From contig MHSR01000001.1 in the NCBI GenBank assembly GCA_001822815.1, positions 1-47,325 on the forward strand: a DNA stretch of 47,325 nt, given 5' to 3'. The position numbers and the translations under genes are program-made. The stretch is from Candidatus Terrybacteria bacterium RIFCSPHIGHO2_01_FULL_43_35 (GTDB taxonomy: Bacteria; Patescibacteriota; Minisyncoccia; Terrybacterales; GWB1-40-14). This document shows positions 43,291 through 45,800 of this stretch, in pieces; position 1 is the stretch's first letter; each line of letters begins with the position of its first letter. Below the pieces are notes generated by a model. That model made no database searches. It saw only the letters and a list, made by a program, of their open reading frames with translations, and was not told the DNA's origin.

Positions 43291-43860
43291 ATGGATTACA
43301 TAATTTCTTTGATCTTCAATAATTATTCAACTTCCCAGCTGCTTTTTTCACAGATTTCATCTTTCTTTGAACTGCCCTCTTGGTTGGAGCAGATTCTGCC
43401 CGTAGTCAAGTTTTTGGCCGGTATATTTTCTATTTTATCCTTCGCCTTCATTGTTCTTATAATAATCAGGCTTAACCGTTTAATGTTTTCATCGATAGTT
43501 CAAAATGTGACTGCATCTATCCATGCAGAAAATCTTCCCGCCGACAAGCTCGCTAAACAATGGACAAAGATAAAGGGTAGGATAAGTCAAAATACTGAGG
43601 CCGAGTGGAAGCTTGCGGTTATTGAGGCGGATAAGTTAGTAGATGATATACTCAAGAAAATGGGCTATCCAGGCGAAGACATGGGCGATCGTTTAAAAAG
43701 CATTAAGCCCGAACAGCTTGCTTCCCTGAACATTCTTTGGGAAGCGCATAAGTTAAGGAATACCATCGTGCACGACACCGAATTTTATGCTTCTGAACTT
43801 GAGATAAAAAATGCCATAGATCATTACGAAACATTTTTGAAAGAGGTTGAGGTAATGTGA
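43291..43860 (+). CDS. Membrane protein with HEPN-like C-terminal domain
   Basis: A 189-aa protein. One strong membrane helix (about 36-60) is followed by a coiled linker and a helical C-terminal domain ending WEAHKLRNTIVHD...IDHYETFL. The R156-N-x3-H161 pattern matches the R-x4-6-H signature of HEPN nucleases or nucleotide-binding proteins. It lies 9 bases after gatA, so it is probably co-transcribed. Whether it is an active RNase is unknown; no paired nucleotidyltransferase (MNT) gene is adjacent. Confidence 0.7.
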   Translation: MDYIISLIFNNYSTSQLLFSQISSFFELPSWLEQILPVVKFLAGIFSILSFAFIVLIIIRLNRLMFSSIVQNVTASIHAENLPADKLAKQWTKIKGRISQNTEAEWKLAVIEADKLVDDILKKMGYPGEDMGDRLKSIKPEQLASLNILWEAHKLRNTIVHDTEFYASELEIKNAIDHYETFLKEVEVM

Positions 43861-43946
43861 TATTTCTTATATAATCCGGCCGCGCCTTTTACAAGTTGTT
43901 TAGTATTGGTTAGAGTATACAATACAGCCTGTCTCTAATGCGCCAT

Positions 43947-44013
43947 CGCGGGGTGGAGGACCGGTACCATCGTCCCGATCTCAGTAAGATCGGGAAGGAG
44001 CGGGTTCAATTCC
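43947..44013 (+). pseudogene. Partial, altered copy of tRNA-fMet
   Basis: It begins like the intact tRNA (CGCGGGGTGGAGGACCGGTA), but the D stem is broken (CCAT instead of CCTC). The anticodon arm is replaced by a perfect 9-bp hairpin, TCCCGATCT-CAGTA-AGATCGGGA. It ends in the T arm (CGGGTTCAATTCC), where the GIY-YIG ATG follows. The 3' acceptor strand is missing. AAGGAG in the variable region could serve as a Shine-Dalgarno site about 14 bases before the ATG. Confidence 0.75.
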
Positions 44014-44014
44014 T

Positions 44015-44284
44015 ATGTTTACGGTCTATATTTTATATAGTTTTTCTAAGGACAAATATTATATAGGACAAACCAACAACTTAATTCATAGAATAGAGCG
44101 TCATAATGAAAATAGGGTTCGCGCCACTAAATTTCGTGGCCCTTGGCAATTGTTGTATAGTGAAGAATATGCTACGCGTGGCGAGGCATTGAAGCGCGAG
44201 CGATTTTTGAAAAGCAGAAAAGACAGAAAGTTTATTGAACAAATCATCGCGGGGTGGAGGACCGGTACCTCGGCGGTCTCATAA
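44015..44284 (+). CDS. GIY-YIG endonuclease ending inside tRNA-fMet
   Basis: An 89-aa single-domain nuclease: VYILYS...KYYIGQTNNL (GIY-YIG core), RIERHN with the catalytic Arg, and E in EATRGEALKRER. It belongs to the small UPF0213/URI-type group. Its last 14 residues (IAGWRTGTSAVS) are encoded by the 5' part of tRNA-fMet, and the TAA stop begins with the last base of the anticodon. Thus the gene and the tRNA overlap by 37 bases. The substrate is unknown; the location suggests that the tRNA gene is its insertion site. Confidence 0.88.
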   Translation: MFTVYILYSFSKDKYYIGQTNNLIHRIERHNENRVRATKFRGPWQLLYSEEYATRGEALKRERFLKSRKDRKFIEQIIAGWRTGTSAVS

Positions 44285-44318
44285 GCCGCAGGAGCGGGTT
44301 CAATTCCCGCCCCCGCAA
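44248..44318 (+). tRNA. tRNA-fMet(CAT), initiator
   Basis: A 71-nt cloverleaf: acceptor CGCGGGG/CCCCGCA with the C1-A72 mismatch typical for initiators, D stem GAGG/CCTC with A11-U24, anticodon stem GCGGT/GCCGC, loop CTCATAA (anticodon CAT), T arm GCGGG-TTCAATT-CCCGC, discriminator A. The third G-C pair of the usual GGG/CCC anticodon stem is U-G here. CCA is not encoded. Confidence 0.92.
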
Positions 44319-44352
44319 CACCAATAATTGATAAATCATTAATAATATTTTT

Positions 44353-44742
44353 ATGAACAAAAAAATGATCATTATATCTTCCGTAATCCTGGCGGTATTA
44401 ATAATAGCGTTAGGTGTTTGGTATTTTAGAGCCGGTACTTCCACAAATAATATTACATCTGACAACGATACCAGCGCAGTTAAAACTCCCACATTTGAAG
44501 AACAAAAAACAGAACAATTAGAGTTTGCTCAGCGTGTTTATAGTCAGTACAAAACTGCGGGTGGTAATATGTCTAGCGGTCCGTGTTTAAGCAACGGCAC
44601 TGAATGGGTCGTGGATGTTGTCCATAATCCGCGACAAGCTGTAGATGATTTGCCGGCAAATCAATGTCCGTCTTACCTATCCGGTCTTTCAAAACATTTT
44701 ATCGAATTGGATCTTAGCGGTAATCTTGTTAGAGCCCAGTAG
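44353..44742 (+). CDS. Unidentified membrane-anchored protein, 129 aa
   Basis: An N-terminal membrane anchor (MNKKMIIISSVILAVLIIALGVWYF) is followed by a Ser/Thr/Asn-rich linker and a small extracytoplasmic domain with two cysteines (GPCLSNG, NQCPSYL) that may form a disulfide. No lipobox is seen. I do not recognise the family. It lies between tRNA-fMet and tRNA-Met with its own A/T-rich upstream region. Confidence 0.7.
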   Translation: MNKKMIIISSVILAVLIIALGVWYFRAGTSTNNITSDNDTSAVKTPTFEEQKTEQLEFAQRVYSQYKTAGGNMSSGPCLSNGTEWVVDVVHNPRQAVDDLPANQCPSYLSGLSKHFIELDLSGNLVRAQ

Positions 44743-44804
44743 TTGTTTTTTCTAGCTCGTATATTTTGGGGGCTTGCCTTTTGTGGCGCTGATTTTAGTT
44801 TTAT

Positions 44805-44877
44805 GCCTGGGTAGCTCAGCGGTAGAGCAATGCTCTCATAAGGCAGAGGTTCGTGGGTTCGAATCCCACCCCAGGCA
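44805..44877 (+). tRNA. tRNA-Met(CAT), elongator (or Ile2)
   Basis: A 73-nt cloverleaf: acceptor GCCTGGG/CCCAGGC, D arm GCTC-AGCGGTA-GAGC, anticodon loop CTCATAA (CAT), T arm CGTGG/CCCAC region, discriminator A. The closed first pair (G1-C72) excludes initiator. A lysidine-modified tRNA-Ile2 also has CAT and cannot be excluded by eye. Confidence 0.9.
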
Positions 44878-44910
44878 CAATTTTTGACGTTGACTTTTTA
44901 ATTTTTTAAT

Positions 44911-44938
44911 GGACCGTTGGTGTAGCCTGGTTAACACT
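44911..44938 (+). pseudogene. tRNA-like 5' fragment before the LAGLIDADG gene
   Basis: GGACCGT-TG followed by a perfect D arm, GTGT-AGCCTGGTTA-ACAC, with the usual U8 and G18-G19. After that the sequence enters the LAGLIDADG reading frame (TTG start at 44941). No matching 3' part (an ACGGTCC strand or second T arm) is present downstream. Confidence 0.65.
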
Positions 44939-44940
44939 AT

Positions 44941-45627
44941 TTGTACGTGCCTATCTTTAAAAATAAAAACGAAAATTTCTTTAAAAAGTGGACTCCAGAA
45001 ATGGCTTATGTCTTGGGTTATTTTTGTGCAGACGGCAGTATGTTCGTTAACCCTCGCGGTGGGCATTTCACCGCTTTTTATTCAAACGATAGGCAATTAC
45101 TTGAATTTGTGCGAACCGTTCTTGCGGCTGAGCATAAAATCAGCAAGAAGAAGAAAAACGACAGGAGAAAACACACAAGCTATTTTCTCCAATTTGGTAG
45201 TAAGAAGATGTATTATGATTTAATCCGACTGGGTTTAGTTCCTCGTAAGAGTCAACGATTAATTTTACCGCCGGTACCTTCTGTTTATTTTGCGGCATTC
45301 GTTCGGGGTTATTTTGATGGCGATGGAAATATTGTTTACGGTTTTTATCGGCGATCCAATCGTGCAAAGCCAGCTCGTATACTTGCCGTTCGTTTTACAT
45401 GCGGTAGCAAATATTTTCTTGAGGCCTTTGCCAAGCGCATCCACAAAGAAATAGGCATTTCGGGAAGTTTTTTCTTTCAGTCAAGAGCTTGGCGTCTTGG
45501 ATATAGTAATCGACCAGCGTATAAACTTTTGAATTATATGTATGGAGACCATAGGGATAATTTTCCGATACTTCCACGAAAATATAATAAGTTTCTAGAA
45601 GCCAAAAAAGTTTTGGTTAATTTATAA
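44941..45627 (+). CDS. LAGLIDADG homing endonuclease
   Basis: A 228-aa protein with two LAGLIDADG motifs, MAYVLGYFCADGS (about residues 21-33) and FVRGYFDGDGN (about 120-130), the monomeric two-motif type that cuts long asymmetric sites. The conserved segment FFKKWTPEMAYVLG begins before the first ATG, so translation probably starts at TTG 44941 or GTG 44947, 2-8 bases past the tRNA-like fragment. It ends five bases before tRNA-Asp. I see no group I intron core around it, so it looks free-standing. Confidence 0.9.
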   Translation: MYVPIFKNKNENFFKKWTPEMAYVLGYFCADGSMFVNPRGGHFTAFYSNDRQLLEFVRTVLAAEHKISKKKKNDRRKHTSYFLQFGSKKMYYDLIRLGLVPRKSQRLILPPVPSVYFAAFVRGYFDGDGNIVYGFYRRSNRAKPARILAVRFTCGSKYFLEAFAKRIHKEIGISGSFFFQSRAWRLGYSNRPAYKLLNYMYGDHRDNFPILPRKYNKFLEAKKVLVNL

Positions 45628-45632
45628 AATAT

Positions 45633-45707
45633 GGGCCCGTGGACCAGCCTGGAGTGGTCGGCTCCCTGTCACGGAGCAGATCGAGGGTTCAAATCCCTCC
45701 GGGCCCG
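45633..45707 (+). tRNA. tRNA-Asp(GTC)
   Basis: A 75-nt cloverleaf: acceptor GGGCCCG/CGGGCCC, D stem GACC/GGTC, anticodon stem GCTCC/GGAGC, loop CTGTCAC (anticodon GTC), T arm GAGGG-TTCAAAT-CCCTC, discriminator G. It starts five bases after the LAGLIDADG stop. CCA is not encoded. Confidence 0.94.
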
Positions 45708-45716
45708 CATTAAAGA

Positions 45717-45752
45717 AATTTAAATCCAGCCTTGTGCTGGATTAAATTTTTT
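45717..45752 (+). terminator. Terminator after tRNA-Asp
   Basis: AATCCAGC-CTTGT-GCTGGATT with A/T-rich flanks and TTTTTTG, ten bases after the tRNA. Confidence 0.8.
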
Positions 45753-45794
45753 GTTGTGACCGCAACGACCCTATAACTGCTACGGGGAAAATGA

Positions 45795-45800
45795 TATAAT
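45795..45800 (+). promoter_or_regulatory. -10 box of the LamG-pilin gene
   Basis: TATAAT lies 17 bases before ATG 45818; the 5' leader would be about 11 bases. Confidence 0.55.

Follow-up and report, generated by a model that had tools for sequence, protein, structure and literature searches.

The 47,325-nucleotide (nt) stretch of DNA analysed here (hereafter the window) comes from Candidatus Terrybacteria bacterium RIFCSPHIGHO2_01_FULL_43_35, a member of the Patescibacteriota (contig MHSR01000001.1, positions 1 to 47,325), and carries a LAGLIDADG nuclease gene lodged between a broken tRNA-Asp gene and an intact one. We found that this architecture is real and recurrent, and that it is a new form of free-standing homing endonuclease. 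In our view, the cassette in the window is most probably a homing element built on a free-standing LAGLIDADG endonuclease, which is specialised on the tRNA-Asp(GTC) gene and carries a working replacement tRNA with it.

All features of the window described here lie on the plus strand. The tRNA-Asp 5' fragment spans 27 nt (44911-44937) and reads GGACCGT-TG-GTGT-AGCCTGGTTA-ACAC, comprising the 5' strand of the acceptor, nt 8-9 and the whole D arm, with a stem of 4 base pairs (bp) and a 10-nt loop. It has 0 mismatches to the tRNA-Asp 5' consensus, and a search of the window for its pattern gave a single match, against 0 in 100 dinucleotide-preserving shuffles. The open reading frame (ORF) of the nuclease (44947-45627; 226 amino acids, aa) begins with GTG and ends with TAA, and its start lies 9 nt past the end of the D arm. 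Those nine bases (44938-44946, TATTTGTAC) look like a decayed continuation of the fragment, with TTGTACG standing for the anticodon part CTGTCACG. Five nt separate the stop codon from an intact tRNA-Asp(GTC) (45633-45708), which is complete, pairs with itself and has a recoded D arm, GACC-AGCCTGGAGT-GGTC, with T at position 21. A search of 43850-45800 found no group I intron at Rfam E <= 5, and the ORF is not intron-encoded; the 0.83-Mb genome yielded no 3' half that matches the acceptor strand GGACCGT at up to 1 mismatch. A preliminary description of the locus, made from the sequence alone, was thus right about the perfect D arm, the intact tRNA five bases past the stop and the lack of an intron core and a 3' exon, whereas its statement that the nuclease starts within a few bases of the fragment stands for the adjacency and is refined here to 9 nt. 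On its 5' side the cassette is bordered by an intact tRNA-Met(CAT) (44805-44878), which occupies the same place in a same-genus relative, and on its 3' side the tRNA-Asp is followed by a terminator-like hairpin (45723-45750).

The 226-aa protein looks like an intact enzyme. It matches PF14528 (LAGLIDADG_3) at 1e-14, and both LAGLIDADG motifs (GYFCADG and GYFDGDG), with their catalytic acidic residues, are present in one chain; the catalytic D29 is invariant, and D126 is kept in at least 90% of 47 relatives. An AlphaFold2 model (predicted local distance difference test score of 93.7) has the two-lobed LAGLIDADG fold, and its top Foldseek match, I-Tsp061I (2dch; E 1.5e-11, template modelling scores of 0.64/0.70), an archaeal homing endonuclease, is also a PDB match by sequence. 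The gene lies outside introns and inteins and beside a conserved gene, which places it among free-standing homing endonucleases.

The same locus in relatives suggests which of the two tRNA-Asp genes is the older. G001, a genome of the same genus, has no match to the nuclease, and its tRNA-Asp is intact, canonical and without a fragment. The syntenic order there is gatA, a gene of 189 aa, tRNA-fMet, a GIY-YIG gene, a gene of 133 aa, tRNA-Met, a gene that we take from our own reading of its sequence to be of the NlpC/P60 type, and tRNA-Asp. The comparison with an uninterrupted locus had been proposed earlier, with a fragment occurring as an ordinary remnant without the nuclease as the contrary case, and in G001 neither fragment nor nuclease accompanies the intact tRNA-Asp. 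The window fragment resembles the native tRNA-Asp of relatives (GGACCGNTGGTGTAGCCYGGTTAACAC; GGACCCATGGTGTAGCCTGGTTTAACAC... in G001, GGGCCCGTGGTGTAGCCCGGTTAACAC... in G003) and is unlike the intact copy downstream of the nuclease, which belongs to a different type. The fragment therefore looks like what is left of the original native gene, whereas the intact tRNA-Asp has the look of a newcomer. The same kind of NlpC/P60-like gene lies between tRNA-Met and tRNA-Asp in two more members of the order, which makes three relatives in which it was seen (at L147 it occupies 2542-2976).

A scan of a genome collection and a class-wide search of 383 genomes brought together the family of the window nuclease, with 115 distinct loci in the whole-genome survey. 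At 96 of these 115, the nuclease gene ends where an intact tRNA gene on the same strand begins. The median distance from stop codon to tRNA is -9 nt, and the TAG at tRNA positions 8-10 often serves as the stop codon of the nuclease. The adjoining tRNAs are Asp-GTC, Cys-GCA, Leu-GAG, Leu-TAG, Leu-CAG, Leu-TAA, Phe-GAA and Val-GAC, and when the isoacceptors are mapped onto a tree of 148 nucleases they change 12 times, compared with a minimum of 8 and a mean of 85 for shuffled labels. Target specificity would produce such isoacceptor-specific clades, and because the clades are divided in this way, each of them would be expected to cut its own tRNA gene. Close relatives are found in Moran-, Wolfe-, Harrison-, Portnoy-, Kaiser-, Nomura- and Giovannonibacteria, and also in Peregrinibacteria and in one Omnitrophota genome; the family is apparently large and undescribed in Patescibacteria. 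Relatives in Bacillales (L038, L040-L048, L050 and L051) do not lie beside tRNAs and were set aside; several of them precede a recurring motif like GTAGACATAATATANATTCTAGG. At L137, L160 and L164, related LAGLIDADG genes end right before non-tRNA genes, which, from a reading of their starts, we presume to be topA and dnaE.

In the reading that we consider most probable, the cassette would arise as follows. The nuclease would recognise a site of some 22-25 bp that begins in the D loop and reaches the anticodon, and would cut tRNA-Asp genes in which the element is absent. Repair of the break would then copy a block, consisting of the nuclease gene and a complete tRNA-Asp, into the cut site, leaving the old tRNA-Asp cut down to its 5' half (44911-44937), while the incoming tRNA-Asp would assume the essential function. 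The incoming gene may itself be spared through its recoded D arm or, in relatives, through a group I intron that splits the site. The retained half would become the promoter and operator of the nuclease in many relatives, where binding of the nuclease would repress its own gene, and would have decayed in the window.

For the relatives, we scored the stretch 5' of the nuclease against every tRNA of the isotype to which the locus belongs and compared the scores with those of shuffles (p <= 0.05; the loci are mutually related and the p-values are therefore optimistic). Local alignment of the upstream region to the locus's own downstream tRNA proved insensitive, because the linked tRNA is often of another or a recoded type. 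Pieces of the own isotype were found upstream of 29/43 Leu-type, 13/47 Asp-type and 2/18 Cys-type nucleases. The upstream regions of Leu-type loci scored 24.0 against Leu tRNAs, versus 16.4 against Asp and 17.1 against Cys tRNAs. Pieces that begin at tRNA nt 1-3 occur at L105, L131 and L113 and in the window, and most pieces span the D loop to the anticodon. Strict site patterns were also applied: a Leu-type site like TTGGTATACGCTATA-nn-CTTGAG lies upstream in 18/44 loci and an Asp-type site, GGTTAG-N9-CTGTCA, in 8/54, with 0 in all swapped controls. Both ends of these sites are tRNA-like and the centre is changed, with conservation at the pattern-fixed positions being imposed by the search pattern itself. 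The sites run into a -10 box in 9/17 Leu-type cases (1.75 expected from shuffles) and in 7/8 Asp-type cases (0.6 expected). By sequence, many Leu-type and some Asp-type relatives have a candidate operator that resembles the presumed homing site and overlies the promoter, a feature that is not clear in the window, and tRNA pieces have probably been retained in part as nuclease promoters or operators in relatives.

These sites are also what would be expected if a homing endonuclease had inserted between genes, 5' of a tRNA that was never broken, and the upstream pieces had arisen later as operators that mimic the site. Such an origin has a precedent in the I-TevI operator (PMC2988022), and it would fit the kept half sites with a changed centre next to a -10 box in both Leu and Asp types, as well as the restriction of most pieces to the D loop-to-anticodon region. 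However, copies that begin at tRNA nt 1-3 and take in the D stem (in the window, L105, L131, L113 and most GIY-YIG loci, described below) exceed a site of 22-25 bp. A mirror-image clade argues in the same direction. In the Leu-CAA clade (L010, L115, L119, L128, L144 and L145), the order is intact tRNA-Leu(CAA), nuclease and 3' tRNA-Leu fragment; the intact tRNA precedes the nuclease in five of six loci, at a spacing of 12-31 nt, and a 3' tRNA-Leu piece lies at the nuclease end in four (L115, L145 and L010, p = 0.005; L128, p = 0.045). These 3' fragments lie beyond the end of the gene, in a place that calls for no promoter, and an operator role alone would not explain them, whereas landing at a cut inside a tRNA, with one complete copy kept on either side, gives both orders. 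We therefore consider insertion beside an unbroken tRNA, with the upstream pieces arising later as operators only, unlikely.

Three features of the linked tRNA-Asp genes, namely an intron, T at position 21 and T32, are candidates for protecting the copy that travels with the nuclease. In twelve linked tRNA genes, ARAGORN resolved an anticodon loop that is interrupted by 201-321 nt, typically at CCTGT^CAC. Intron-bearing tRNA-Asp genes are those of L002, L020, L023, L026, L032, L062, L063, L065 (labelled Ala by ARAGORN, although its sequence reads as Asp), L067, L074, L078 and L080, and also of L033 and L073. Most of the insertions tested match the group I intron model; the Rfam gathering threshold missed most of these introns, which were detected in E-value mode. 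At L074, a further group I match covers 766-1064. Among intron-less tRNA-Asp genes, T at position 21 (T21) was found in 11/34 linked and 2/75 unlinked copies (p = 4e-5, with kinship ignored).

Several observations count against the element as reconstructed above, in addition to the kinship of the loci. T21 is not exclusive to linked genes, since the two unlinked T21 tRNA-Asp genes have no nuclease beside them, and 19 of 45 distinct linked tRNA-Asp genes have none of intron, T21 and T32. Recoded D arms are also frequent without a nuclease in Leu-GAG. In view of these 19 genes, recoding alone was dropped as a full explanation of protection; given also the nuclease-free recoding in Leu-GAG, protection by recoding is plausible for the tRNA-Asp of the window and is not proven as a general case. 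No significant upstream piece was found in 34/47 Asp-type and 16/18 Cys-type loci, so that these two types more commonly show either insertion beside an unbroken tRNA or a fragment that has decayed completely. The fragment in the window has no recognisable promoter. Finally, the genome of the window did not yield the NlpC/P60 gene of the relatives, and the exchange at this locus was therefore more than a single clean insertion.

Three other explanations fare worse than an origin of the pieces as operators. One is a tandem duplication of tRNA-Asp in which one copy decayed and a nuclease came to lie between the two by chance. Duplication of tRNA genes followed by decay is common, and the comparison with G001 reveals a variable set of genes between tRNA-Met and tRNA-Asp. 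This explanation is nevertheless very improbable: the association recurs at 96/115 loci, with several isoacceptors and in a clade-specific manner, and random placement was not found; the fragment and the intact copy in the window are of different tRNA-Asp types and not recent duplicates. Harder still to credit is that the adjoining tRNA merely provides the nuclease mRNA with a processed 3' end or a transcription context, the target being elsewhere. The stop codon often comes from the tRNA itself, which implies a shared transcript, but this arrangement leaves unexplained both the isoacceptor-specific clades and the target-like upstream pieces of the same isotype. The least credible possibility is that the fragment belongs to a split or trans-spliced tRNA, or that a degenerate group I intron links it to a 3' exon. 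The perfect D arm close to the ORF and the introns in the tRNA-Asp of relatives speak for it, but it was rejected on the intron search, blank at E <= 5, on the genome search with 1 mismatch allowed, which gave no 3' half, and on the complete, self-paired tRNA-Asp downstream.

Similar to the LAGLIDADG cassette, a GIY-YIG cassette in the window consists of a broken tRNA-fMet (43947-44013; nt 1-60, with a hairpin in place of the anticodon arm), a GIY-YIG nuclease ORF (44015-44284) and an intact tRNA-fMet (44248-44319), which the 3' end of the ORF overlaps. The shared layout had been recognised in the preliminary description, and its proposal that two unrelated nuclease families converge on one arrangement at tRNA genes is supported by the relatives. 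Among the GIY-YIG relatives sampled, including loci L171-L200, 17 lie upstream of a tRNA, and in 14 of these a piece of the same tRNA, usually from nt 1, precedes the gene, alongside the 96/115 LAGLIDADG loci that adjoin a tRNA. The tRNAs of the GIY-YIG cassettes are Asp, Gln, Leu, Pro, Asn, Lys, Tyr, Trp, Cys and fMet. A palindromic hairpin is usually inserted into their fragments, frequently within the D arm or where the anticodon arm would be, whereas the LAGLIDADG fragments have no such hairpin. The GIY-YIG gene of L190 seems to have one and the same hairpin-bearing broken tRNA-Tyr on either side, followed by an intact tRNA-Tyr. At two further loci (L054, ~1170-1360; L167, minus strand, ~1066-900), a whole tRNA is seemingly nested in the D loop of a tRNA-Met-like gene; the nested genes are flanked by the inverted repeat ccctcaccattt/aaatggtgaggg.

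A wider generalisation can be put forward tentatively, with a little less than even confidence. Patescibacteria may harbour a radiation of isoacceptor-specific nucleases that destroy an essential tRNA gene, supply a resistant copy and build a repressible promoter from the broken half, with a second, unrelated family, the GIY-YIG nucleases, doing likewise at further tRNAs; the whole would then amount to a drive that replaces tRNA genes and also recodes tRNA bodies, as in the change from A21 to T21 in tRNA-Asp. In tiny genomes, one would not expect selfish DNA to settle well in essential tRNA genes, and the family suggests a general route by which selfish nuclease genes may enter such genes without killing the host. 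With one isoacceptor per branch, it lends itself as a testable model for the choice and switching of targets by nucleases, for the survival of hosts and for the way in which tRNAs may be rewritten under attack. LAGLIDADG enzymes that differ in their specificities for tRNA genes, yet are related in them, could also be drawn from this natural source, and the family points to a possible origin of operators that copy a homing site.

In the open-access papers searched, we found no report of nucleases parked at tRNA genes, or of introns in tRNA-Asp, in Patescibacteria. In candidate phyla radiation bacteria, LAGLIDADG genes such as that of I-ShaI have been described inside rRNA insertions, in a main text that does not mention tRNA (PMC11270868). 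I-ShaI is of the same enzyme class and from the same bacterial radiation as the window nuclease, but is located in rRNA insertion sequences. A group I intron-encoded endonuclease of tRNA-fMet is described, where it is cited, as specific for the anticodon region (Bonocora and Shub 2001, cited in PMC3984707). The proposed specificity for a tRNA anticodon region is similar, whereas that enzyme is encoded within the intron and nucleases of the window type lie outside, including at intron-free tRNAs. Collaborative homing, and invasion by endonuclease genes, have been reviewed (PMC3984707); the introns in the anticodon of nuclease-linked tRNA-Asp are reminiscent of it, but here they are in the tRNA-Asp of cellular genomes, and the window itself is intron-free. 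The operator of I-TevI is a target-like sequence that overlaps the enzyme's own promoter and was shown experimentally to be bound but poorly cut (PMC2988022). In relatives of the window nuclease, a target-like sequence likewise runs into a presumed nuclease promoter and is altered in a way that would leave it bound but poorly cut; this putative operator, by contrast, is a sequence-based prediction and consists of a piece of a tRNA gene, sometimes an evident remnant. The closest parallels in lifestyle are T4 SegF and SegG, which carry out intronless homing, and SegB, which lies within the T4 tRNA cluster and has a tRNA intergenic region as its listed target (PMC2988022). As in these systems, the nuclease gene stands outside introns, beside its presumed target, and would spread through repair of the cut allele. 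The Seg enzymes are phage nucleases of the GIY-YIG/HNH type, whereas the family described here is a bacterial LAGLIDADG family with a clade for each isoacceptor and with a broken tRNA half in place.
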